Below the pieces are notes generated by a model. The model was not told the DNA's origin and did no database searches. It was given only the letters and a program-made list of their open reading frames with translations. A stretch of 64,000 nucleotides of DNA, taken from assembly GCF_000733755.1 (NCBI RefSeq), contig NZ_JPOF01000003.1, forward strand, positions 620,001 to 684,000, read 5' to 3'. This document shows positions 35,893 through 46,679 of this stretch, in pieces. Source of the stretch: Lachnoclostridium phytofermentans. Its GTDB lineage: Bacteria > Bacillota > Clostridia > Lachnospirales > Lachnospiraceae. The first letter of the stretch is position 1. The number at the start of each line of letters is the position of its first letter. The position numbers and the translations under genes were made by a program.

Positions 35893-36275
35893 GTCATTAC
35901 CTCCGTATATTTTTCTAGGTTTTTGTGTATACTTCATCTTTTTTGGTTATATTTATTATAGCATAGGCGTATTTATAAATGAAATTAATATATATGAAAT
36001 ATTTCATTAGGTGAACTAATAAAGCCAACTAGTAAATTATCAGGATTAAGTTCTGTTTAACTTTCAGTCAATAAGACAGTGCACTAGACAATCTTTCCTG
36101 TCTAGTGTACAATATGTATACAATTTTATAGTGTAAAATAAAGTATACCTTAAAATTGTATGACTATTTTATCTAGTCTAAAACGCTATAAACTAGCTCA
36201 CTCAAACAGTAATTGTAGGTGATGAAGCTAGCATGCGTGGTCTAGAATTTTTGTGGAATACTCGGAGGAAATCAT
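35893..36275. other. Divergent intergenic region between purL and the MraY-like gene
   Basis: No gene is visible. TATAAT lies near 35955-35960 on the purL side (minus strand). A stem CACTAGACA/TGTCTAGTG is at 36082-36107 with an 8-base loop. No purine riboswitch consensus was found in front of purL. Confidence 0.5.
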
Positions 36276-37238
36276 ATGCTTTACTCAATTTTTGATAACT
36301 TGTCAGGCAAAAGTATAACTTTTGTAGGGTTATTGCTAGCTTTTTTAATTACATGTATCTTACTCAAGGTACTTCAGAACATTCTGCCAAGGGACGGTGG
36401 AAGAGCTTACGCGGTAAACGGTGGTCTATCTCAAGGAAAACCTCGCGGTGCAGGACTAGTTTTTATCTTAGTATTCGTTGTAGCTACCTTGCTATTTGTT
36501 CCAATCACCAGAGAACTTATTATTTATCTACTCATGATTATTGCTGCTATGATGAGTGGTTATTTAGATGATAGCTCCAAAGCCCCTTGGGGTGAATATA
36601 AAAAAGGGTTCATTGACTTAGTCATTGCACTTGTATGTGCCGTTACTTATGTGAATTTTAATGGTAGCACTTTAACATTTTTAACTACTGGATCCTCAAT
36701 TGAACTCAATCCTGTTCTCTATGTGTTACTTGCAATGCTGTTAATCTGGGTATCAATTAATGTAACCAATTGTACCGATGGAGTAGACGGGCTTAGTGGA
36801 AGCATTGGTATCGCTACAATCTTTACTTTCTATCTTGTTTTTGTTTCTATTATAGACAACCAAGATTATGGTTTAATCTCCCTTATCATGATTGCATGTA
36901 TCCTTGGTTACTTATGGTTTAATGCCTCTCCAAGTAAGTTGTTAATGGGAGATGCTGGCTCCAGAGCAATTGGATTGTTTATTGCGGTGATTGCCCTCAA
37001 AACAGGTAGCCCATTACTTTTCATCCCTGCTGCCATTGTATTTATCATTGACGGAGGTCTTGGCTTAGTTAAGGTTGCTCTTCTACGTTTCTTCAAGATT
37101 AAGATCCTAGCAAATACAAGAACACCGATTCATGATCATGTTAGAAAAAAATTAGGTTGGTCGGATACACAGACTGTATTTCGTTTTATTATCATCCAAG
37201 CTATGGTATCCTTTGTTACCCTTTATATGTTTTTATAG
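36276..37238 (+). CDS. MraY-like phospho-N-acetylmuramoyl-pentapeptide/GlcNAc-1-P transferase
   Basis: A 320-residue integral membrane protein with about ten helices, moving a sugar 1-phosphate from a UDP-sugar to undecaprenyl phosphate. Seen are GYLDDSSKAPWGEYKKGFID (the DDxxK motif), NVTNCTDGVDGLSGSIG (catalytic Asp region), LLMGDAGSRAIG and TPIHDHVRKKLGWSDTQTVFR. The last is close to MraY but has His-Asp-His in place of the usual triple His. It is isolated and not in a dcw cluster, so it is likely a second MraY paralogue or a related transferase. GGAGGAAA precedes the ATG. Confidence 0.85.
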   Translation: MLYSIFDNLSGKSITFVGLLLAFLITCILLKVLQNILPRDGGRAYAVNGGLSQGKPRGAGLVFILVFVVATLLFVPITRELIIYLLMIIAAMMSGYLDDSSKAPWGEYKKGFIDLVIALVCAVTYVNFNGSTLTFLTTGSSIELNPVLYVLLAMLLIWVSINVTNCTDGVDGLSGSIGIATIFTFYLVFVSIIDNQDYGLISLIMIACILGYLWFNASPSKLLMGDAGSRAIGLFIAVIALKTGSPLLFIPAAIVFIIDGGLGLVKVALLRFFKIKILANTRTPIHDHVRKKLGWSDTQTVFRFIIIQAMVSFVTLYMFL

Positions 37239-37467
37239 TAAGATTCATAATAATAAACCTATATATTATTACGGATAAGGAATTATTTCAACGTTAATTT
37301 AATCCTACTTACAAATATACTGCCAGCAGTGTAAATTTATAAAGTAGGCTTCGATACGTACGTACTATGAATTCTACATCGATGGGAATTATTATTCACA
37401 TTGGATTTTAAAAGAATAGGTATAGAATTACTACCCTATAACACAGGAACAGAAAGGAGAAGGCGCA

Positions 37468-38358
37468 TTGGATATTAATTACGAGTTATATAAAGTATTC
37501 TATTATGTTGCGAAAACACTAAGCTTTAGTGAGGCTGCTGCTGAGTTATTCATCTCACAATCGGCGGTCAGTCAATCGGTAAAAGTATTAGAAAAACGTC
37601 TGAATCAGGTTCTCTTTATACGAAGCACAAAAAGAGTAAGTCTTACCAAAGAAGGTGAGATGCTTTTTAAGCACATCGAACCAGCGATTAATTTAATCAG
37701 CCGTGGTGAGAACCAAATCTTAAATTCTACTCCAGCCGGTGGCATGCAATTACGAATTGCCGCAAGCGATACGATTTGTCGATATTTCTTAGTGCCTTAC
37801 CTTAACAAATTTCACAAATCCTATCCCGAGGTACATATCCGTATTATTAACGGTACCTCACTCAAGTGTGCAGAATTACTTGAAACAAATCAAGTGGACT
37901 TAATCGTTGCGAATTCCCCGAATTCTGCTCTAAATAATAATTTAAATATTCAGGACATTACCACCTTTCGTGATGTTTTTGTTGCAAAGCCAGATGCCTT
38001 TCCACTGGCAAATCGTAAACTTACGCTAGCAGAGCTTCAAAGGTTACCTATCCTTATGTTAACTAAACTCTCTACTACAAGCGCTTTCCTCCATAATTTA
38101 TTTTTACAGCATTCCTTGGATTTGGTGCCTGCTATCGAACTTAGCAGTAATGATTTATTGATTGACTTAGCGAAAATCGGTCTCGGTATTGCTTTTGTAC
38201 CAGATTTTTGTATTAATAACATAAGCCCTTCTGAGCTAATTACAATTGAAACAATGGAAGAAATGCCGGAACGAAAATTAGTCGCAGCTTACGATGATAC
38301 CTTACCATTATCAGAACCTGCACAATTTTTTATTAAATTAATGCTAGACAAGCTATAG
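37468..38358 (+). CDS. LysR family transcriptional regulator
   Basis: A 296-residue regulator. The N-terminal winged helix is YELYKVFYYVAKTLSFSEAA with LFISQSAVSQSVKVLEKRL. The effector domain follows from about residue 90 (MQLRIAASDTICRYFLVPYL, VDLIVANSP, LAKIGLGIAFVPDFCI). The start is a TTG at 37468 with AGGAGA about seven bases before it; no ATG fits the family N-terminus. It is convergent with the azlD end of the aspartoacylase-azlCD operon. It could regulate that operon, but no operator was identified. Confidence 0.9.
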   Translation: MDINYELYKVFYYVAKTLSFSEAAAELFISQSAVSQSVKVLEKRLNQVLFIRSTKRVSLTKEGEMLFKHIEPAINLISRGENQILNSTPAGGMQLRIAASDTICRYFLVPYLNKFHKSYPEVHIRIINGTSLKCAELLETNQVDLIVANSPNSALNNNLNIQDITTFRDVFVAKPDAFPLANRKLTLAELQRLPILMLTKLSTTSAFLHNLFLQHSLDLVPAIELSSNDLLIDLAKIGLGIAFVPDFCINNISPSELITIETMEEMPERKLVAAYDDTLPLSEPAQFFIKLMLDKL

Positions 38359-38416
38359 AAAGTATTTTCAATAAAAGTATAAACAGATAATAAATCTATA
38401 CAGGTGGTTTAAGCTA

Positions 38417-38469
38417 AACAGGTGATCTATGTTTTCGGTTACAATCGAAAACATAGATCACCTGTTTTT
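38417..38469 (+). terminator. Terminator of the LysR gene
   Basis: AACAGGTGATCTATGTTTTCG and CGAAAACATAGATCACCTGTT form a perfect 21-bp stem followed by TTT on the plus strand. It lies about 60 bases after the stop and between convergent genes. Tandem copies of GAACGATTATTTAA follow at 38498-38525. Confidence 0.8.
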
Positions 38470-38586
38470 CTTATTCATTAAATTTTTCCTATTCATAGAA
38501 CGATTATTTAAGAACGATTATTTAAGAATGATATAAATATAAACTTTACATCTTGATTTCGATGTCGCTATAATTAGCCTGTTACT

Positions 38587-38895
38587 TTAGAAAAATAACC
38601 CCGTAATGAATACAGTGATTATAGCTCCAGCTGCTACTACCACCAAACTTCTTTTATAATATGCTAAAAGAAACGCTACGATTGTTCCACACACCGCAGT
38701 TATTACATTACCTGTAGATTCAAATACATCCGGAAATGTGAGTGCTCCTAATACTGCATAGGGAACGTAATTTAAAAAAGACTTGATACGTGCTGATTTT
38801 ATTTCTTTACGAAAAACTGCAATTGGCAAGGCTCTTGGTATATAGGTTACGAGCGCCATAATGATTACTGCTAAAAGTGCCTTTTCTATCTTCAT
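38587..38895 (-). CDS. azlD: AzlD family branched-chain amino acid export subunit
   Basis: A 102-residue membrane protein with three hydrophobic stretches (ALLAVIIMALVTYIPRALPI, FLNYVPYAVLGALTFPDVF, VVVAAGAIITVFITGLFF). It is the small partner of AzlC in exporters of branched-chain and other amino acids. TYIPRALP is characteristic of the family. Its start overlaps the azlC stop by four bases (ATGA), so the two are co-translated. It is the last gene of the operon. Confidence 0.9.
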   Translation of the reverse strand: MKIEKALLAVIIMALVTYIPRALPIAVFRKEIKSARIKSFLNYVPYAVLGALTFPDVFESTGNVITAVCGTIVAFLLAYYKRSLVVVAAGAIITVFITGLFF

Positions 38896-39614
38896 ACACT
38901 TTCCTCCTTCTTATCCTCCATAGGAAATAAAATCGCCCCAATTCCTGCGGAAAGAACAGTCGCTATAACCACCTTAAAGCCGGATGAAATAAAGGAAAAG
39001 GCAGGGATATATCGTAAACAGTAATGTATAAAAATGGAGAGCAGTAAAATAACAACTACAGGCTTAGATTTTCTTGCTGGAGGAATAATGATAGCAATAA
39101 ACATTCCATAAAGAGCAATTCCCATTGCATCTGCCAAACTTTGTGGCAGTGCTGTACATATCATAGCTCCTAGCGCAGTGCCAAGACTCCAGCCGACAAT
39201 AGGACTACTAATTAATCCAAACATATATGCACTGCTTAACTTTCTCTGCTCCATAGAAGCTACGCTAAATGTCTCATCTGTAATACCAAAAGAAAAAATG
39301 AGGCGATTCCATACTCCAATTTTAGAATCTATCTTTTGAGATAGCGATAAAGACATTAGCATATATCGTATGTTAATAATAAATGTGGTGAAACCTATTT
39401 CAAATAATCCTGCCCCAGCAAAAATTAAATTCGTTCCTGCAAACTGTCCTGCAGAGGTCAGATTTGACAAAGAAATAAAAATAGCTAACCATACCGGTAA
39501 TCCACCGTTTACCGCCATAAGCCCAAACGTAAAGGACACTGGCAGATAACCAATTGCAATTGGCAATCCCCGTTTGAAACCATATTGAAGATCTCTCTTA
39601 CTATCAATATTCAT
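38892..39614 (-). CDS. azlC: AzlC family amino acid exporter, large subunit
   Basis: A 240-residue inner membrane protein with about six helices. FKRGLPIAIGYLPVSFTFG, SAGQFAGTNLIFAG and NIRYMLMSLSLSQKI followed by FGITDETFSVA match the AzlC/YgaZ family, which exports branched-chain amino acids together with AzlD. It starts 19 bases after the degenerate aspartoacylase-like gene. The context suggests export of an amino acid released by the two upstream enzymes. Confidence 0.92.
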   Translation of the reverse strand: MNIDSKRDLQYGFKRGLPIAIGYLPVSFTFGLMAVNGGLPVWLAIFISLSNLTSAGQFAGTNLIFAGAGLFEIGFTTFIINIRYMLMSLSLSQKIDSKIGVWNRLIFSFGITDETFSVASMEQRKLSSAYMFGLISSPIVGWSLGTALGAMICTALPQSLADAMGIALYGMFIAIIIPPARKSKPVVVILLLSIFIHYCLRYIPAFSFISSGFKVVIATVLSAGIGAILFPMEDKKEESV

Positions 39615-39633
39615 TGTACTATTTTCCTTTGTT

Positions 39634-40569
39634 TTATTCGTGTAATCTTCTTATTATTTTATATACAATGCAATTTTGTATCACCAAAGGTTTACTATGA
39701 GCAAAGAAGATAATTCCATCGCTTGGAGCTATAATTTGTGAGATTACTTCTCCTTCAATCGGATCTACTACTTCTGCTAAGACATCACCAAACTTTACTT
39801 CTTCCCCTGGTTTTCTAAGAGGTCGATAGATTCCTGAAACATCTGTTTTAATCGGCATTAATGACTCTTCTTCCACAATACTTGCGATATAACCACTATG
39901 ACAGTTATACTTGATGATTCCCATGCGTGTCAAGAATCGAAGGACGGAAGATACCGCCTGTCTTGCAGACTTTTCGTCAATACTACTCGTTGCTGGGGTG
40001 TATACCGAAAATGCATTCGTTCCATTTACCTGCCAGCAATAGTTTAGAGTTCCTGTATCAAAAGGATGAGGCTTTTTAGTCAGTACATAAGGTAACCCAA
40101 ATAGATTCGCAAGGCTAGTACTTTGATGACCTGTTTCCATCATTCTAACATGAGGAATAAATTCACCCGGAGTGTGAAAGCTTGCAAACTGAATACCATA
40201 ACTATATCCTTCCACTGCCTTAAATACTCCACCTGCAATACGTTCCGTAGTTTCACCGCTGTTATCTCCCGGGAACATGCGATTAATATCAGACTTATCC
40301 ATCGCCCAGAAACGTTTCTCAATGTTAATACTGGATTGGTTCAACGTCGGAATTACCATAATTTCATTGTTATTTAAAATTGCTCCGATTTTTTCTAGTC
40401 TAGTCAACTCCTTAACCAACTGAGAACAGATATATAACTGTTGTATCTCATTTCCTCTTGTCGGTCCCACGATACATGCTGCCTTTTCTCCCTTACCAAA
40501 ACGAAAACCAACTATGTGCATGTCATCACGAAAAGGACTTTTTACCGTATGAATTATTTCCTGAAACAT
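39634..40569 (-). CDS. Succinylglutamate desuccinylase/aspartoacylase-like protein with lost zinc ligands
   Basis: A 311-residue protein, the same length and fold as its upstream neighbour. The expected zinc motif HGxE reads VGPTRGNEIQQLY, so the His is Arg while Glu is kept. The second His, in DLHxS, is replaced: GIQFASFHTPG aligns with CVDLHASN, putting Ala at that site. NINRMFPGDNSG (substrate Arg region, like NRSFPGD) and the C-terminal barrel-sandwich domain (VSGIYRPLRKPGEEVKFGD, IIAPSDGIIFF) remain. It is therefore probably a non-catalytic partner or has changed function. Its ATG follows directly after the upstream TAA, with AGGAGGG inside the upstream gene. Confidence 0.8.
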   Translation of the reverse strand: MFQEIIHTVKSPFRDDMHIVGFRFGKGEKAACIVGPTRGNEIQQLYICSQLVKELTRLEKIGAILNNNEIMVIPTLNQSSINIEKRFWAMDKSDINRMFPGDNSGETTERIAGGVFKAVEGYSYGIQFASFHTPGEFIPHVRMMETGHQSTSLANLFGLPYVLTKKPHPFDTGTLNYCWQVNGTNAFSVYTPATSSIDEKSARQAVSSVLRFLTRMGIIKYNCHSGYIASIVEEESLMPIKTDVSGIYRPLRKPGEEVKFGDVLAEVVDPIEGEVISQIIAPSDGIIFFAHSKPLVIQNCIVYKIIRRLHE

Positions 40570-41505
40570 TTACACCCCTCCTAGGATTCTAGCAATTAGG
40601 GAACCATCATAAACAACAGGGTATTCCCTTAATGTAAACACGACTCCATCACAAGGAGCTATAATGTGTTGAACAACCGTACCATTAAGACTATCCACAA
40701 TATTTCCGACTACATCTCCAGCTTTGATATCCATCAGGTGTTCTACACATGGCAAAAAGATTCCGGAAGCTTCGGCATGTATTAAAGTCACTTTATCACG
40801 ATCGGAGGAGATTACCGAAGTCTTTGGCGTTATCACAGACCCATTCCAAATACCAAGCTTATGCATCAGGCAAAAAATACCCTCTAAGATCTGATCTCCG
40901 AACTCCTTTGTAATTCTCATACCAACTCCCATCTCAATACTTAACGTTGGTACCCCATTTTGATTTAGGCTATGATAAAGGCTTGCAGGTTCTACTGTTG
41001 GTGAAGAATGAACCCAGATAAAGTCTGTATTTAATAGCTTTGCATATTCTAATAGACTTTCTTCATGCTGCTTATCAAGTCGAACCTGTGGAATTTCTCT
41101 TAAAAAGATATTGCTCGCATGCAGATCCACACAAAAATCTGCTCCCTCAAGATCTTCTACAAGCTTTGCAGCTACATATTCGGACATATCACCATCCATA
41201 TCTCCTGGGAAGCTTCGATTCATATCCAAATCAAAGGTTGGTATTCTTCTTGTAATTGACTCCATCCCCAACGGATTTACACACGGATAGACATCCACAA
41301 TACCAGTTAAGAATTCATTTTCTTCCCTAATACGGCGGATCAATTCATAACATATGTACTGACCTTCAAGTTCATCACCGTGAACTCCTGTTACAATACA
41401 AATTCTTTTTTCATTCCCCTTTTTATTCTCTGGTTCTAAATGATTCTTTTTAATGTGCATCGTTTCTAATACTGGCAGACCTACCGAAACTACTGTTTTT
41501 ACCAT
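40570..41505 (-). CDS. Succinylglutamate desuccinylase/aspartoacylase family amidohydrolase
   Basis: A 311-residue M14-like zinc amidohydrolase. IVTGVHGDELEGQYI supplies the first His and Glu ligands and FCVDLHASNIF the second His. NRSFPGDMDGDMSEY carries the substrate-binding Arg. IEMGVGMRI has the catalytic Glu expected near the C-terminal end of the core. A barrel-sandwich domain follows at about 225-311 (ASGIFLPCVEHLMDIKAGD, IIAPCDGVVF). Such enzymes remove acyl groups from N-acyl amino acids. It leads an operon with a degenerate paralogue and azlCD, so the likely product is an amino acid to be exported. The true substrate cannot be read. Confidence 0.87.
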   Translation of the reverse strand: MVKTVVSVGLPVLETMHIKKNHLEPENKKGNEKRICIVTGVHGDELEGQYICYELIRRIREENEFLTGIVDVYPCVNPLGMESITRRIPTFDLDMNRSFPGDMDGDMSEYVAAKLVEDLEGADFCVDLHASNIFLREIPQVRLDKQHEESLLEYAKLLNTDFIWVHSSPTVEPASLYHSLNQNGVPTLSIEMGVGMRITKEFGDQILEGIFCLMHKLGIWNGSVITPKTSVISSDRDKVTLIHAEASGIFLPCVEHLMDIKAGDVVGNIVDSLNGTVVQHIIAPCDGVVFTLREYPVVYDGSLIARILGGV

Positions 41506-41644
41506 CTTTACACATCCCTTCTGTAGGTATATCTTAACGCTTTAAAGCATTACCTTGTAATAGTATTTATTGAAATTTCATTTCATTGTACTACAATTAT
41601 ACAGTAAAGTAAATCCCTTGAAACCATACTAATTTAGAACAAAG

Positions 41645-41755
41645 GAAGCAAAAAACCAAAGAAAATATTAGCAACCCCGTAGGGTGAGTATGCATCCCTT
41701 CGAAAGTTTTAATATATAGAAAATTACGATGCAATTTCCTATATATAAAAAAAGT
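41645..41755. repeat. Dispersed hairpin-rich repeat, copy 2
   Basis: GAGTATGCATCCCTTCGAAAG is followed by TTTTAATATATAGAAAATT and the mate AATTTCCTATATAT. The order GCATCCCT - AGTTTT - AT-rich stem - TTTCCTAT matches copy 1 at 21320-21380. It lies between the aspartoacylase operon and the sugar ABC operon. The rest of 41506-41914 shows nothing. Confidence 0.5.
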
Positions 41756-41914
41756 CTAAGCATACTAGCTCTATTCCCGCTAACATACCAAGACTCTTTC
41801 CTTATTTATTCTTTACAGCATCTAAATCATTTCCTCTTTAATACCATACTAATATATTACATAACTTCTATAATTACGAACACTATTAAAATTTTATTAC
41901 AACATAATCTTATC

Positions 41915-42775
41915 TCAACCTTTTACAGCTCCTTGAGTCAAACCATTATAAATCTTATTTTGACAGGTAATAAAAACAATAAGTGCCGGCAACACCGTAA
42001 TAATAACCCCTGCACAGATAAAATTGTATTGATTACCAAAAGGGCCAGTAAAGGTATAAAGCGAAGAGGATACCACTTTTAATTTTTCTGATTGTAGATA
42101 TAGATTTGCCATATAGTATTCATTGTAGGTACTAACTCCTTTTAGTATCATACAGGTGACAATGGCTGGTTTTAATAGTGGCAACAGGATACGAAAGAAT
42201 ACCGTATAGTAAGATGCTCCATCCACGATTGCGGATTCATCAAGAGATACAGATATATTCTCAAAAAACTGTAAAAATACATAGATAGATATAACATCTG
42301 TTCCCATTAATAGGATCATATAACCAACTAGCGTATTCACTAAATTTAAGCTTGTCATAATGGAAAATACAGTTACCTGAACAGCAACCCCTGGAATAAG
42401 AGCTGCAAATAAAAATAAATTTCTTATCAAACCATTTCCCAGAAATTTGAATCGATTGAGTATGTATGCAAGCATTGTTCCTATCAAGATTGAACCCATT
42501 AAAACAAACACTAATATAATCATTGAATTAAGAAATGCTCTCCCCATATTTCCCTTCGTCCATGCTGTCACAAAATTTTCAATATAGAACCAATTTTTTG
42601 GAAGGGTCGCAACACTCGTTTGATTGTATTCCTGTGTACTTTTAAATGCTGTTATCACACAAGATACAATCGGAAGTAACATCCAAAAAGTTATAAATAT
42701 CAGACTAAAGTACTTTAAAAAACTAATAATACACTGTTTGACTGAATAGTGCTTTCTTCTTTTCCTATTACTCAT
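41915..42775 (-). CDS. Carbohydrate ABC transporter permease (MalG-like)
   Basis: A 286-residue permease with six hydrophobic segments. The cytoplasmic EAA loop reads ESAIVDGASYYTVFFRILLP followed by LLKPAI, which contacts the ATPase. The N-terminus KYFSLIFITFWMLLPIV and GPFGNQYNFICAG are typical of the MalG/CUT1 group for oligosaccharides. It overlaps the preceding permease gene by eight bases and has AAGGAGGT before its ATG. It is the third gene of the importer operon. Confidence 0.92.
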   Translation of the reverse strand: MSNRKRRKHYSVKQCIISFLKYFSLIFITFWMLLPIVSCVITAFKSTQEYNQTSVATLPKNWFYIENFVTAWTKGNMGRAFLNSMIILVFVLMGSILIGTMLAYILNRFKFLGNGLIRNLFLFAALIPGVAVQVTVFSIMTSLNLVNTLVGYMILLMGTDVISIYVFLQFFENISVSLDESAIVDGASYYTVFFRILLPLLKPAIVTCMILKGVSTYNEYYMANLYLQSEKLKVVSSSLYTFTGPFGNQYNFICAGVIITVLPALIVFITCQNKIYNGLTQGAVKG

Positions 42776-43766
42776 AAGTGTTACCTCCTTCCTGTTTTTT
42801 CAGGTAACGGTTCATTCTTTTTCTAGTTCCCTTCGATATATCCGAATCATTATCAAATATAAAGTGAAAGATTAATTTCTGGGCAACCGTAACCAGAATA
42901 ATAATTCCCATTAAGACAATTGCCATTGCGGATGCTAATCCAACTTTCTTTGTATTATGAGCAAGAACATGCATTGTTACAAAGTAGGTTGCCGTTTCTG
43001 CAGTACCACCTGTGATAACATAGGAAGGTTCAAAGGCACTTAACGATCCAGAAATCGATAAAATTAAGTTAAGCAAAACTACAGTCCTTATGCTTGGTAG
43101 AATAATGTATTTAAACTCTTGCCACTTACTTGCTCCATCAAGTTCAGCAGCTTCGTACATTTCGCTGTCAACGGACATAATAGCACCGATAAATAAAACC
43201 ATATTCTGTCCCATGTATCTCCACACCGATGTTGCAGCTAATGAGATGTTATTTATCCTTGTATCAGAAAGCCAGCGTGGCAGACTATCAAGGTCAAAGC
43301 CAACTGCTTGTAATACAGTATCTAATACAAATCCTCTAGTAAAGAAAAATTTAAAGATAAATCCAACCGCTATACCACAGATTAAATAAGGAAAAAATAT
43401 TGCACCTTTAAAAAACTTCCCGCCTTTTACCTTAAAACTTAAAATTGTAGCAAAATAAAGAGCTAGAACAAGCTGTATCAGAGATGCCCCCATATAATAG
43501 AGACTTAAGTATAACGCGCGAAAACAATCTTCTCTCTTAAAAACATCTATATAATTCTTAAAACCTACCGGTGTTCTTCTTCCAAGATACTTCATCTTAT
43601 AGAAACTAAATTCAATCATTTTTTCAAAAGGTAAATACGTAAAAGTGATTAAAAGAGTCATCGGAACCAGTAAAAATAAAATGATAATACTCGCCCTCTG
43701 CCCCTTTCTACTTTTTAGAAATCTAATTGGATGAATTCTTTTTTGGTTTGATTTTACGTTATCCAT
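42768..43766 (-). CDS. Sugar ABC transporter permease (MalF-like)
   Basis: A 332-residue permease with six helices and a charged C-terminal tail. EAAELDGASKWQEFKYIILP is the EAA loop. The N-terminal RASIIILFLLVPMTLLITF and the LPRWLSD segment fit the MalF-like CUT1 partner. AGGAGGAC precedes the ATG. It lies 107 bases after the binding-protein gene, in the usual order of binding protein, MalF-type and MalG-type. No ATPase gene is present. Confidence 0.92.
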   Translation of the reverse strand: MDNVKSNQKRIHPIRFLKSRKGQRASIIILFLLVPMTLLITFTYLPFEKMIEFSFYKMKYLGRRTPVGFKNYIDVFKREDCFRALYLSLYYMGASLIQLVLALYFATILSFKVKGGKFFKGAIFFPYLICGIAVGFIFKFFFTRGFVLDTVLQAVGFDLDSLPRWLSDTRINNISLAATSVWRYMGQNMVLFIGAIMSVDSEMYEAAELDGASKWQEFKYIILPSIRTVVLLNLILSISGSLSAFEPSYVITGGTAETATYFVTMHVLAHNTKKVGLASAMAIVLMGIIILVTVAQKLIFHFIFDNDSDISKGTRKRMNRYLKKQEGGNTYE

Positions 43767-43873
43767 AGGGTCCTCCTACTGGAATATGAGCCAAGGGTAT
43801 CCCTGGCTCACATTCTGAATTCTACCGCAGATTCTCCTGGGTTAAATAGCCCATAAGAACGTCTAAGTTATGA

Positions 43874-45343
43874 TTAATACTTTACTTCTATGCCAAGTGA
43901 AGCTTGTGCATCGGACCAAGCTTCATTAAACTCAGCCATAAGTTCCTCTAACGTCTTTGCAGATTCCCCTTTGCTTGCCTTAAATCCTTCCCAGAATACG
44001 TACTGAGCCTTCTTACCATCCACATTGATATTCATTTCTGATTCTGCGTTAATTGCGTTAAACGTATCTTCTTCCCCCGCTGCTGCTGGATTATTCACAA
44101 TAAACTCCACACCCGAGAAAGCGTTTAATACTTCTGGATATGCGCCCGTTTTTAAGATTGGAATACCACCTTCATTATAAGAGAAGTTTGATTGCTCCAC
44201 TAACCATTTCGTATATATCTTCGCTGCAAACTTTGTTACTTCATCTGCATTTATATTAATCCCATAGCAATAATCAGCACCTGCAGAAGCATATTGTTTT
44301 CCATTGATTGTTAACGGAAATGGCATATATCCAATATCCTGTGGGTTAGAATCTGCTTGTTGAAACTGAGTAACAGCCCAAGATCCCATTGCCATTACAC
44401 CAATTTCACCACGATTGATTCTTCCCTTACAGCCTTCCCAGTCTGTAGTAACAGGATCTTCTTCGCATAAACCACGAGCAGCAATATTATAAATCAAATA
44501 ATAGGCAGAATAAGCACCTGTAAAATCATCCGTAGGGCCAAATGGATTTTTCTGATATGGTAAAATATTATTGTAGTACTCTGGATCACCATTCGTAGAG
44601 CCACCAATATGTGCATTCCACTGTGAAATAGCCCAGTCATCTTTGTAGTTAGAATAGTAAGGGTCCTCAGCTGCACCAGTATCTTTGATTTTTTGTAAAC
44701 AATCTAAGAATTCGTCTGGGGTCTTTGGAAGACTAGTAATACCAGCAGCTTCAAATACCTTCTTGTTGTAAACAATACCTTGTGCATTTCCAGTAGAGGA
44801 TAATCCATATACTACATTGTCAAAAGCCTTGTCATCACAGAAATTATAAATGTCTTTCAATACATCATAACTTCCAATCGGCTCAAAATAGGTACCTAAA
44901 TCTACCTTATCAATCGATGTTGGAATCATACACATGGTTCCCCAATCCTTTTGTGTAAGACGAATATCCATTGTTTCTTTGTAATCCGTAATTCCTTCGT
45001 ATTCCACCTTAATATTCGGGTAAACTTTATTAAATTCAGCAACATACTCTGCAAATCTTCCATTATCCACCAAATCCGTACGATGTGTTGCGAATTTAAT
45101 TGTTGCTGTAATGTCAGTGTACTTTCCTAATTCAATTTGATCAAGTGTCATGCTATAATCTGGTGTCTCATCATTCGCAGCTTCACTTTCTGCTTTTGTA
45201 GCTTCTGGCTCCTTAGTTGGTGTCTGTGTGTTTTCTTTGTTCGCATCTACGCTAGTATCCTTGTTGTCTTTCTTAGATCCGCATGCTGCTAACGAAAAAC
45301 ATAGTACAAACACCAATGCGATACTAATTAGTTTTCTTTTCAT
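43874..45343 (-). CDS. Extracellular sugar-binding lipoprotein of an ABC importer
   Basis: A 489-residue lipoprotein. The signal peptide MKRKLISIALVFVLCFSLAA ends in LAAC with the lipidated Cys at 21. A Lys/Asp/Thr/Glu-rich linker runs to about residue 60. The mature part is a solute-binding family 1 protein (TDLVDNGRFAEYVAEFNKVY, PNIKVEYEGITDYKETMDIR, GEIGVMAMGSWAVTQFQQA, YASAGADYCYGIN). It delivers a sugar to the two permeases downstream; the sugar is unknown. AGGAGGAG precedes the ATG. Confidence 0.93.
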   Translation of the reverse strand: MKRKLISIALVFVLCFSLAACGSKKDNKDTSVDANKENTQTPTKEPEATKAESEAANDETPDYSMTLDQIELGKYTDITATIKFATHRTDLVDNGRFAEYVAEFNKVYPNIKVEYEGITDYKETMDIRLTQKDWGTMCMIPTSIDKVDLGTYFEPIGSYDVLKDIYNFCDDKAFDNVVYGLSSTGNAQGIVYNKKVFEAAGITSLPKTPDEFLDCLQKIKDTGAAEDPYYSNYKDDWAISQWNAHIGGSTNGDPEYYNNILPYQKNPFGPTDDFTGAYSAYYLIYNIAARGLCEEDPVTTDWEGCKGRINRGEIGVMAMGSWAVTQFQQADSNPQDIGYMPFPLTINGKQYASAGADYCYGININADEVTKFAAKIYTKWLVEQSNFSYNEGGIPILKTGAYPEVLNAFSGVEFIVNNPAAAGEEDTFNAINAESEMNINVDGKKAQYVFWEGFKASKGESAKTLEELMAEFNEAWSDAQASLGIEVKY

Positions 45344-45701
45344 ATTACTCTCCTCCTGATTTTTTAAGTTACTATCTCATTTAATAACTTAATTATATTT
45401 TATAACAAGTAAGAATAATTATCATTTCAATATTTTGGTATTTATTGTATTATGTTGGTTTTATATTGTATTCTTCACAGTTTTATTCCACTTAATTATG
45501 TCTATTTTGTTAATAATGACGGTTATATTAAAAAACTCACTTGACATTATCTAACCTTTCGATTATTATGAGCATAATATAGTTCATTTTTTATATGTTA
45601 TTAAAGTTATATTCCGTTTTATTAACTTAATTTTTATTTAAATTAGTATCAATAAGTGGCATAAATATCCAATGAATACAAAGGGGAGGAATTGGAAAGA
45701 T
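45344..45701. other. Divergent regulatory region, importer operon / AraC gene
   Basis: These 358 AT-rich bases separate the leftward binding-protein gene from the rightward AraC gene and must carry both promoters. I could not identify a convincing operator for either the AraC or the LacI regulator. Confidence 0.5.
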
Positions 45702-46679
45702 ATGAATATTATTAAAACAAGAGAAGCTTTGATATCAACAAGACATGTGAGTTCAAAAGATAAAGTTAGTCCAAAAGCAGACACACTTTTTAATAAGACG
45801 AATTCTCAAGCACCCCCATTGGTCATGAGCAAAAATGAGTCTGTCCATTACTTTTTATATGATGAGCCATCTTCGCTTGCAAAGGACTGCTTATTCTACA
45901 TACAGCTTGCAGAAGAAAACACTGTTCATTTTCCCTGGTCGATGGAGCTTAATAACTTAGATTGTTATTTAATTTTATATAGTATCTCAGGACAAGGTAA
46001 CTTGATTTTGAATGACGAAACTTATCCACTTAGGCCTCACACATTTTTCTTTCTACACTGTGACCAAGCAATTCGTCTGGAGCTTGCAAACTCTAACTGG
46101 ACCTATTCAGCTCTTTATCTTAATGGATTATCAATTAAAAAATATTACCACTTATATATGCAAGATGGAGTACCTACTTGCGAAGATGATATTTCTGCAA
46201 TGTGGAATACGATTCGTAAATTTTACTATCGCAATAACAATCAGTTAGATATTGCAGAGCTACTTCGTTCCCAAGTCATAACAGAACTTTTAACTTCTGC
46301 TGTAGTTTTAAAATATCAAAAAACTCATAATGCTGTTCTTATCCCTGAGTACATACTTAAAATGAAGACCATACTAGACGATAGGTTTAAAGAAAATCAT
46401 ACTCTTGACAGCCTATCGAAAGAATTAAACTATAATAAATACAAACTCGCAAAAGATTTTAAATTTTACACAAACTTTTCTCCTATTGATTATTTGATCC
46501 ATAAGCGAATTGAAGAATCTAAAAAACTCTTAGAGGCTACTATGTTAAGTATTAGTGAAATAGGATTTAAAGTAGGTATCGATAACACACCTCACTTTAT
46601 TAATCTATTTAAAAAACAACTTGGTATCACACCAAATAAGTATCGAATACAGTCAGGCAAGAGAGAGTTAAAACAGTAA
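45702..46679 (+). CDS. AraC family transcriptional regulator
   Basis: A 325-residue regulator with an N-terminal cupin sensor at about 80-160 (YLILYSISGQGNLILNDE, YPLRPHTFFFLHCDQAIRLE) and a C-terminal AraC domain at about 215-320 (LDSLSKELNYNKYKLAKDFK, ISEIGFKVGIDNTPHFINLF, ITPNKYR). It lies back to back with the sugar importer operon and is the most likely activator of it. An ATG at 45672 is in frame, but GGGGAGG lies between the two ATGs, so I prefer 45702; the spacing of twelve bases is long. Confidence 0.88.
   Translation: MNIIKTREALISTRHVSSKDKVSPKADTLFNKTNSQAPPLVMSKNESVHYFLYDEPSSLAKDCLFYIQLAEENTVHFPWSMELNNLDCYLILYSISGQGNLILNDETYPLRPHTFFFLHCDQAIRLELANSNWTYSALYLNGLSIKKYYHLYMQDGVPTCEDDISAMWNTIRKFYYRNNNQLDIAELLRSQVITELLTSAVVLKYQKTHNAVLIPEYILKMKTILDDRFKENHTLDSLSKELNYNKYKLAKDFKFYTNFSPIDYLIHKRIEESKKLLEATMLSISEIGFKVGIDNTPHFINLFKKQLGITPNKYRIQSGKRELKQ

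Follow-up and report, generated by a model that had tools for sequence, protein, structure and literature searches.

Why should a bacterial zinc amidohydrolase be encoded directly beside a paralogue of equal length that carries no metal site, and what might the two proteins do together? The question is raised by a locus of Lachnoclostridium phytofermentans (assembly GCF_000733755.1, contig NZ_JPOF01000003.1), situated in a stretch of 64,000 nucleotides (contig positions 620,001 to 684,000) that is called the window below and in whose coordinates all positions without a locus prefix are given. Gene A (40570-41505, minus strand) encodes an AstE/DoeB-type zinc amidohydrolase and gene B (39634-40569, minus strand) its pseudo-enzyme paralogue, each of 311 amino acids. 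The pair is almost certainly real and conserved as one active and one dead member, and it very probably has an ancestral link to a trio of genes for a circularly permuted ATP-grasp (CP-ATP-grasp) ligase, an alpha-E protein and a transglutaminase-like protein. Among the titles and passages that our literature searches listed, none deals with the A-B pair or the five-gene operon, and nothing came up that links an aspartoacylase with a pseudoenzyme; Iyer et al. (2009; PMC3268129), reportedly the source for the trio, may mention AstE-like partners.

Active-site residues and fold of A and B

A matches PF24827 with 93 bits and B with 39.8 bits (cut-off 25 bits), and no further PF24827 protein was found in the window's genome at E<=0.001. 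A belongs to this superfamily by score, by all of its ligands and by the catalytic Glu; B belongs to it by score and fold, but fails on the zinc ligands and the catalytic Glu. The two proteins are 25% identical across 309 columns (BLASTP, E 4e-29). A sequence-only reading of the locus, made before this analysis, had described two equal-length paralogues fused end to start, with TAA followed by ATG. Lengths and codons are as it stated, the stop codon of A (TAA, 40572-40570) directly abutting the start codon of B (ATG, 40569-40567), but A and B are two separate open reading frames (ORFs) that share one frame, and no fused gene is present.

A retains the zinc ligands H42, E45 and H129 and the catalytic E191, in agreement with the two His and the Glu ligand attributed to it beforehand. 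B reads R38, E41, A129 and Y190 at the corresponding sites. The Arg and Ala at the two His positions had been recognised from the letters of the window, but a third loss, that of the catalytic Glu to Tyr190, had been overlooked. When the ligand loss was checked by alignment, no alignment assigned a His to either site of B. The first His corresponds to Arg in BLASTP of A against B, in phmmer against 2qj8 and 3cdx and in MAFFT, and the second to A129 in BLASTP, phmmer against 2qj8 and MAFFT; phmmer against 3cdx is shifted by two residues and places Q127 at the second site, still no His. B does possess a His132, yet this position is Tyr in 107 of 121 B proteins. The placement of Tyr190 opposite the catalytic Glu comes from BLASTP and MAFFT, phmmer against 2qj8 being gapped there and uninformative.

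Residue frequencies were taken from a MAFFT alignment of 256 distinct rows (127 A-type proteins, four of them from the family f60, 121 B proteins and 8 others; counts for A proteins exclude the f60 rows, n=123). R38, E41, N96 and Y190 are invariant in all 121 distinct B proteins, and this recurrence of Arg and Tyr indicates that the substitutions are more than chance. The second His site of B is occupied by Ala (65), Thr (37), Pro (15) or other residues (4; Gly, Ile, Ser, Val). Of the positions at which A and B are told apart, 17 in all, 13 are no more than 11 residues away, along the sequence, from H42, H129 or E191. B is further marked by His140, present in 98% of B proteins and in all six second copies of f60, at a position where 99% of A proteins have Gln. 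B might accordingly be credited with a newly gained, metal-independent catalysis through Arg38, Tyr190 and the B-specific His140, which would fit the universal Arg and Tyr and the near-constant His. The f60 second copies, however, have the zinc ligands in addition to His140, so that His140 did not arise to replace zinc, and a new activity of this kind is very improbable.

The same f60 copies bear on the origin of B. The pair occurs in six of nine f60 genomes, among 82 genomes of that class, and all six second copies keep HGDE and Asp-x-His, with Met in place of Glu. In a tree of 86 rows, the root of which was left unused because its long outgroup falls inside A, B forms one clade (100/100), as does B together with the f60 second copies (100/99). 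In the best reading of these sequences B would descend from one old duplication, and the f60 second copy is possibly a surviving intermediate. Since it holds the zinc ligands and Met for Glu, the simplest order of loss would be Glu first and the zinc ligands later.

That B keeps the rest of the fold, as was also proposed earlier, is borne out by its AlphaFold2 model (60 alignment rows), which reaches a predicted local distance difference test score (pLDDT) of 92.7 and a predicted template modelling score (pTM) of 0.90. The model matches 6twm (Z 29.6, 299 residues), 3cdx (29.5), 3na6 (29.5) and CphZ (8ein, Z 26.9 over 297 residues); Foldseek was also run. The A half of a modelled A-B fusion matches 6twm with Z 29.4, and A finds 3cdx (5.9e-15) and DoeB 6twl (2.9e-9) by phmmer. 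Distant similarity of this kind to DoeB, AstE and aspartoacylase models, combined with the lost active site of B, could mean nothing more than ordinary amino-acid salvage by deacylases of the AstE or DoeB type, one copy decaying, with no defined complex or pathway behind them. But B is full-length, has its invariant Arg and Tyr and changes less than the active copy across families, with a mean pairwise identity of 0.598 vs 0.561 for A (120 loci) and B above A in 4968 of 7140 locus pairs. The scores of A are, moreover, far under the NCBIfam cut-offs for DoeB (51.5 against 402.7), AstE (19.2 against 170) and aspartoacylase (22 against 180), and plain salvage with decay is exceedingly improbable.

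Gene order around the pair

Neighbourhoods were drawn from 200 genomes of the family and 398 genomes across the phylum (profile and protein searches) and from a public-genome scan with the B alignment, which gave at least 597 pattern matches, 566 of them encoding a relative. Counts out of 80 refer to the best 80 of these 566 and describe near relatives, as the closest loci were kept. They were viewed up to 10 kb per side where the contig allows, with at least 3 kb downstream in 69 loci and at least 5 kb upstream in 69. At E<=0.001 B was detected in 66 of the 200 family genomes, some matches being weak, and above 150 bits in 51. A adjoins B in all 30 family loci with extracted genes and in all 80 public-genome loci (78 by script; L107 and L117, in which A overlaps an over-long ORF call, by inspection). 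The two genes overlap by exactly 4 bp in 42 of the 80 loci and are spaced by -50 to +25 bp in 76, which suggests translational coupling. An active-looking enzyme paired with a zinc-less paralogue, as first proposed from the window, is upheld as a conserved and closely spaced arrangement.

The commonest genes upstream of A-B, according to neighbour clusters and Pfam, encode the CP-ATP-grasp ligase (PF14403), alpha-E (PF04168) and a transglutaminase-like protein (PF01841 plus PF08379). The order CP-ATP-grasp, alpha-E, transglutaminase, A, B is present in 30 of the 80 loci; of the 69 loci that extend 5 kb or more upstream, 27 have it. Among the 27 family genomes that are CP-ATP-grasp-positive (PF14403 with E below 1e-30), 26 also possess B, the exception being G019. 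In 24 of them B shares a contig with the ligase gene and lies a few kb downstream of it, including one deletion remnant without A (G124) and one broken locus (G037); in G114 and G076 CP-ATP-grasp and B are on separate contigs. Five genes in this order were also seen in f60 (L121, L122) and in three more families (L118-L120). Weak transglutaminase-like matches upstream of A in L041 (24-35%) were left out of the trio count. The available text of PMC5666114 reports frequent co-occurrence of the trio and a proposed peptide-synthesis system, and that of PMC3597751 terms its domains a peptide synthesis/modification system.

Seven genomes hold two copies of B (G029, G031, G037, G070, G074, G151 and G183), one beside the trio and the other on a different contig; the trio-less pair is the one with the altered zinc His in G070 and G183. 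In G492 (L035/L120) B is called as an ORF of 511 amino acids, about 200 residues above the usual length.

No PF14403 match was obtained in the window's genome (G000) or in its congener G127, so that the trio partner lay outside the view of the sequence-only reading. Loci of other genomes retain traces of it. In L050 and L053 the stretch from LysR to A of a standalone pair contains CP-ATP-grasp remnants of 17-26 codons, 58-88% identical, and in L151 (3594-4018), L152 (3200-3565) and L153 (3389-5019) internal deletions removed alpha-E, transglutaminase and A, so that the N-terminal portion of the ligase now directly adjoins the C-terminal portion of B or is fused to it. On a tree of 121 B proteins, 94 of them labelled by context, the trio is found on the basal branches, and the context changes at least seven times, a rough count in which L053 is labelled as trio on a short CP remnant. 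Remnants, deletions and basal branches together point to trio loss as the way in which standalone pairs would have arisen; positions 41401-42000 of the window contain no CP remnant. In L078, L079, L086, L087, L089, L090 and similar loci the standalone pair is followed by a DUF3877 gene (PF12993) and a gene of about 178 amino acids (cluster c14), which makes up another recurrent neighbourhood.

In the window itself the pair is followed by azlC (38892-39614, minus strand, exporter large subunit; PF03591, 136 bits) 19 bp downstream of B, and by azlD (38587-38895, minus strand, small subunit; PF05437, 76.7 bits), which overlaps azlC by 4 bp. The sequence-only reading took the four genes as one functional unit, a deacylase complex with a regulatory pseudo-subunit that feeds an amino-acid exporter. 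This tight spacing speaks for such a unit, as do the same order in G127 (L157) and, with a peptidyl-prolyl isomerase (PPIase) gene interposed, in G161 (L155, on the contig of L040) and L039; G054 (L156) has azlDC divergent, with LysR in between. Co-occurrence of the four genes was checked, and what had been named beforehand as refuting the idea was observed: the pair is widespread without azlCD. AzlC is near it in three of the 80 loci (L039, L040, L042), all close relatives of the window, and two of these have it downstream of the pair on the strand of A and B; a permissive re-search (E<1) of the 80 loci added no case. The order is broken even among close relatives, with azlC directly beside the pair in the window and G127, separated by the PPIase gene in G161 and L039 and on the opposite strand in L042, and AzlC is present in 167 of the 200 family genomes regardless. 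The four-gene unit is therefore improbable in the general case; the conserved pair of active and dead members stands, with azlCD as a local neighbour. As azlCD nevertheless occur near the pair across the window's clade (window, G127, G161, G054, L039, L042), a local link is possible there. The literature found on AzlC/AzlD contained no mention of succinylglutamate desuccinylase.

A LysR-type regulator (37468-38358, plus strand; PF03466/PF00126) is convergent with azlD. It is 93% identical to its counterpart in the congener (L157), 51% to that in L068 and 59-81% to LysRs located no more than about 10 kb from the pair or operon in 13 loci (L039, L041, L043, L045, L050, L053, L056, L059, L085, L088, L103, L108 and L156); the LysR beside the L151 remnant falls into the same range. 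In L056, L059, L085, L088, L103 and L108, with 59-64% identity, it is located upstream of the trio on the other strand. Further LysR genes in L062, L065, L088 and L091 (20-34% identity) were not counted as orthologues. We infer that this LysR regulates the pair/operon system.

Between lysR and azlD a terminator-like hairpin (38418-38465, plus strand) shows a perfect 20-bp stem and a T tail, its arm sequence being unique in the genome when up to two mismatches are allowed. Matches to mir-5595 at 38408-38475 fall on this palindrome and were rejected (48.2 against a gathering score of 100). The RNA family search found no RNA family or riboswitch in 35900-46000 of the window and no riboswitch in 12 scanned loci, where the matches were one group I intron and one tRNA. 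The group I intron (RF00028; L119:7699-8038, minus strand) is located downstream of the five-gene operon. PADLOC gave no anti-phage defence match for A, B and the L119 trio.

A possible ligase/hydrolase pathway

What, then, might the pair do? In the best overall reading, which we hold to be evenly balanced between right and wrong, A-B is a heteromeric amidohydrolase that works in a ligase/hydrolase pathway and has B as its non-catalytic, ligand-binding subunit. Gene order and spacing make it probable that A and B form such a heteromer, whose two subunits would make up a zinc amidohydrolase with the AstE/DoeB/CphZ fold. A, with zinc and catalytic Glu, would act on a small amino-acid derivative and cleave its N-acyl or (iso)peptide amide. 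B, without a metal site, would have kept and re-shaped its pocket, with Arg for the first His and Tyr for Glu, and would serve A as a partner that is obligate but not catalytic, binding the other part of the substrate or a regulatory ligand; for ligand binding as opposed to a purely structural role the balance is again about even. The CP-ATP-grasp ligase, alpha-E and the transglutaminase-like protein would make or remodel an amide, and the pair would originally have been the hydrolytic end of this five-gene pathway, in the slot that Anbu, an N-terminal nucleophile (Ntn) hydrolase, holds in Anbu operons. That A-B hydrolyses the amide made or remodelled by the trio is plausible, with the weight leaning slightly to the other side. 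The window's genome would have kept the pair and lost the trio. The physiological substrate would there have to come from elsewhere, and the azlCD exporter and LysR beside the pair could dispose of the freed amino acid, its export by AzlCD being a faint possibility.

Several observations weigh against this reading. The slower change of B relative to A is modest, and B is rare outside the family: at 1e-30 it was matched in 6 of 398 phylum genomes, one of which is that of the window. Long branches on the B and the A side drew a warning from the tree program, as joins of this sort can be false. The first zinc His is missing in 6 of 123 A proteins, with Tyr or Gln instead, and the Arg after the conserved Asn, a substrate residue in aspartoacylases, in 10 of 123; the A proteins of L027, L028 and L030 have neither. 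In view of these losses catalysis by A appears not to be universal. A match to PF14403 below 1e-30 is absent from 25 of the 51 B-positive family genomes, and trio genes occur without adjoining A-B in the families f33 and f95 (L168-L170; a single ORF of L170 covers the alpha-E-like and transglutaminase parts). Plasmids of Acidithiobacillus and Kozakia carry the trio genes in another order, with neither A-B nor Anbu within 5 kb as judged from an incomplete gene table and with no search by an Anbu model. Given pairs without trio and trios without pair, neither strictly requires the other. The available sections of PMC5666114 and PMC6376114, finally, give no substrate for the trio or for Anbu.

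Gln or Tyr replaces the first zinc His in the A proteins of L011, L027, L028, L030, L091 and L092; judged by these residues, both members of the pair may be non-catalytic at these loci.

The modelled A-B fusion reaches pTM 0.51 and a mean pLDDT of 82.1 and gives no confident interface. Its alignment used 11 rows, drawn from 12 in-frame A-B stretches found (L003 is the A-B stretch of the window and was entered as such; L131 was excluded for five in-frame stops). A mixed 100-row complex alignment was dropped, having placed single A proteins on the B half. A missing interface would suit a B that is an independent ligand-binding sensor or inhibitor, acting on A or on LysR under some conditions only, and so would the conserved, re-shaped pocket without metal ligands and the LysR orthologues near the system. 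Against such independence, adjacency in 80 of 80 loci, mostly with overlapping ends, suggests coupled synthesis; we regard a separate sensor as unlikely and retain the heteromeric amidohydrolase with a non-catalytic subunit.

Comparison with known systems

Among deacylases of known structure, DoeB/EutE (N-acetyl-diaminobutyrate deacetylase; 6twl, 6twm) and the entries 3cdx, 3na6 and 2qj8 share the full-length fold of A and B (Z 27-30), and A has the zinc motif and the catalytic Glu in common with DoeB/EutE; the 51.5 bits of A nevertheless contrast with the DoeB cut-off of 402.7. CphZ, the hydrolase of the cyanophycin dipeptide beta-Asp-Arg (8ein, 8eip), has the same fold across A and B (Z about 26-27). 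It is, according to the available text of PMC12661447, the hydrolytic partner of a ligase-made amide. Identity to CphZ is about 16%, however, and the ligase here is a CP-ATP-grasp protein in place of cyanophycin synthase. The exporter genes of the window match PF03591 and PF05437 and resemble in this respect AzlCD of B. subtilis, for which the accessible part of PMC10882977 reports export of 4-azaleucine and His and, probably, of Asn. In the window LysR and not an AzlB is encoded by the nearest regulator gene, and the exporter is only a local neighbour of the pair.

The Anbu operon has the order ATP-grasp, alphaE, transglutaminase, Anbu (PMC6376114, available part). In the window's relatives the first three gene families are identical and in the same order, but the fourth slot, together with a fifth, holds the A-B zinc hydrolase pair and not the Ntn-hydrolase Anbu: the trio stands in this order in 30 of the 80 loci, and the gene after it there is not Anbu. 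A-B fills the fourth slot in the Clostridia examined, which makes no claim of a hydrolase beside every trio. PF00227, whose sensitivity for Anbu is unproven, matched in none of the 27 CP-positive family genomes and not in the window's genome; absence of Anbu from the CP-positive genomes is an expectation and not a result. Matches to PF00227 occurred in five genomes of other families, one of them under the cut-off. The four proteins above it are HslV-sized (179-186 amino acids), and in G501 the protein resembles HslV (PDB), with an AAA+ ATPase gene next to follow. As positive controls, plasmid loci of Sinorhizobium, Azospirillum and Caballeronia provided no recognisable Anbu for PF00227, and the Caulobacter and Synechococcus controls matched both PF14403 and PF00227, the identity of the matching protein not having been seen.

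Published hypotheses on the Anbu operon lacked experimental confirmation, as stated in the available text of PMC6376114, and Anbu substrates and interactors are still to be found according to that of PMC5666114. That a heterodimeric zinc amidohydrolase, one subunit of which is metal-free and binds a ligand, has replaced Anbu in its slot in Clostridia is a doubtful but serious proposal. If it is true, the system would produce a metabolite, namely a small amide or isopeptide, and not a protein tag, and Anbu itself would be a small-amide hydrolase. The pair, which many Clostridia keep, is in any case a clean example of a pseudo-enzyme that several bacterial families maintain next to its active twin, and its five-gene context with a putative peptide-making enzyme may help to reveal the role of a little-understood operon. 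A DoeB/CphZ-type hydrolase with a dead twin in the place of Anbu offers an independent and assayable handle on the chemistry of that operon.

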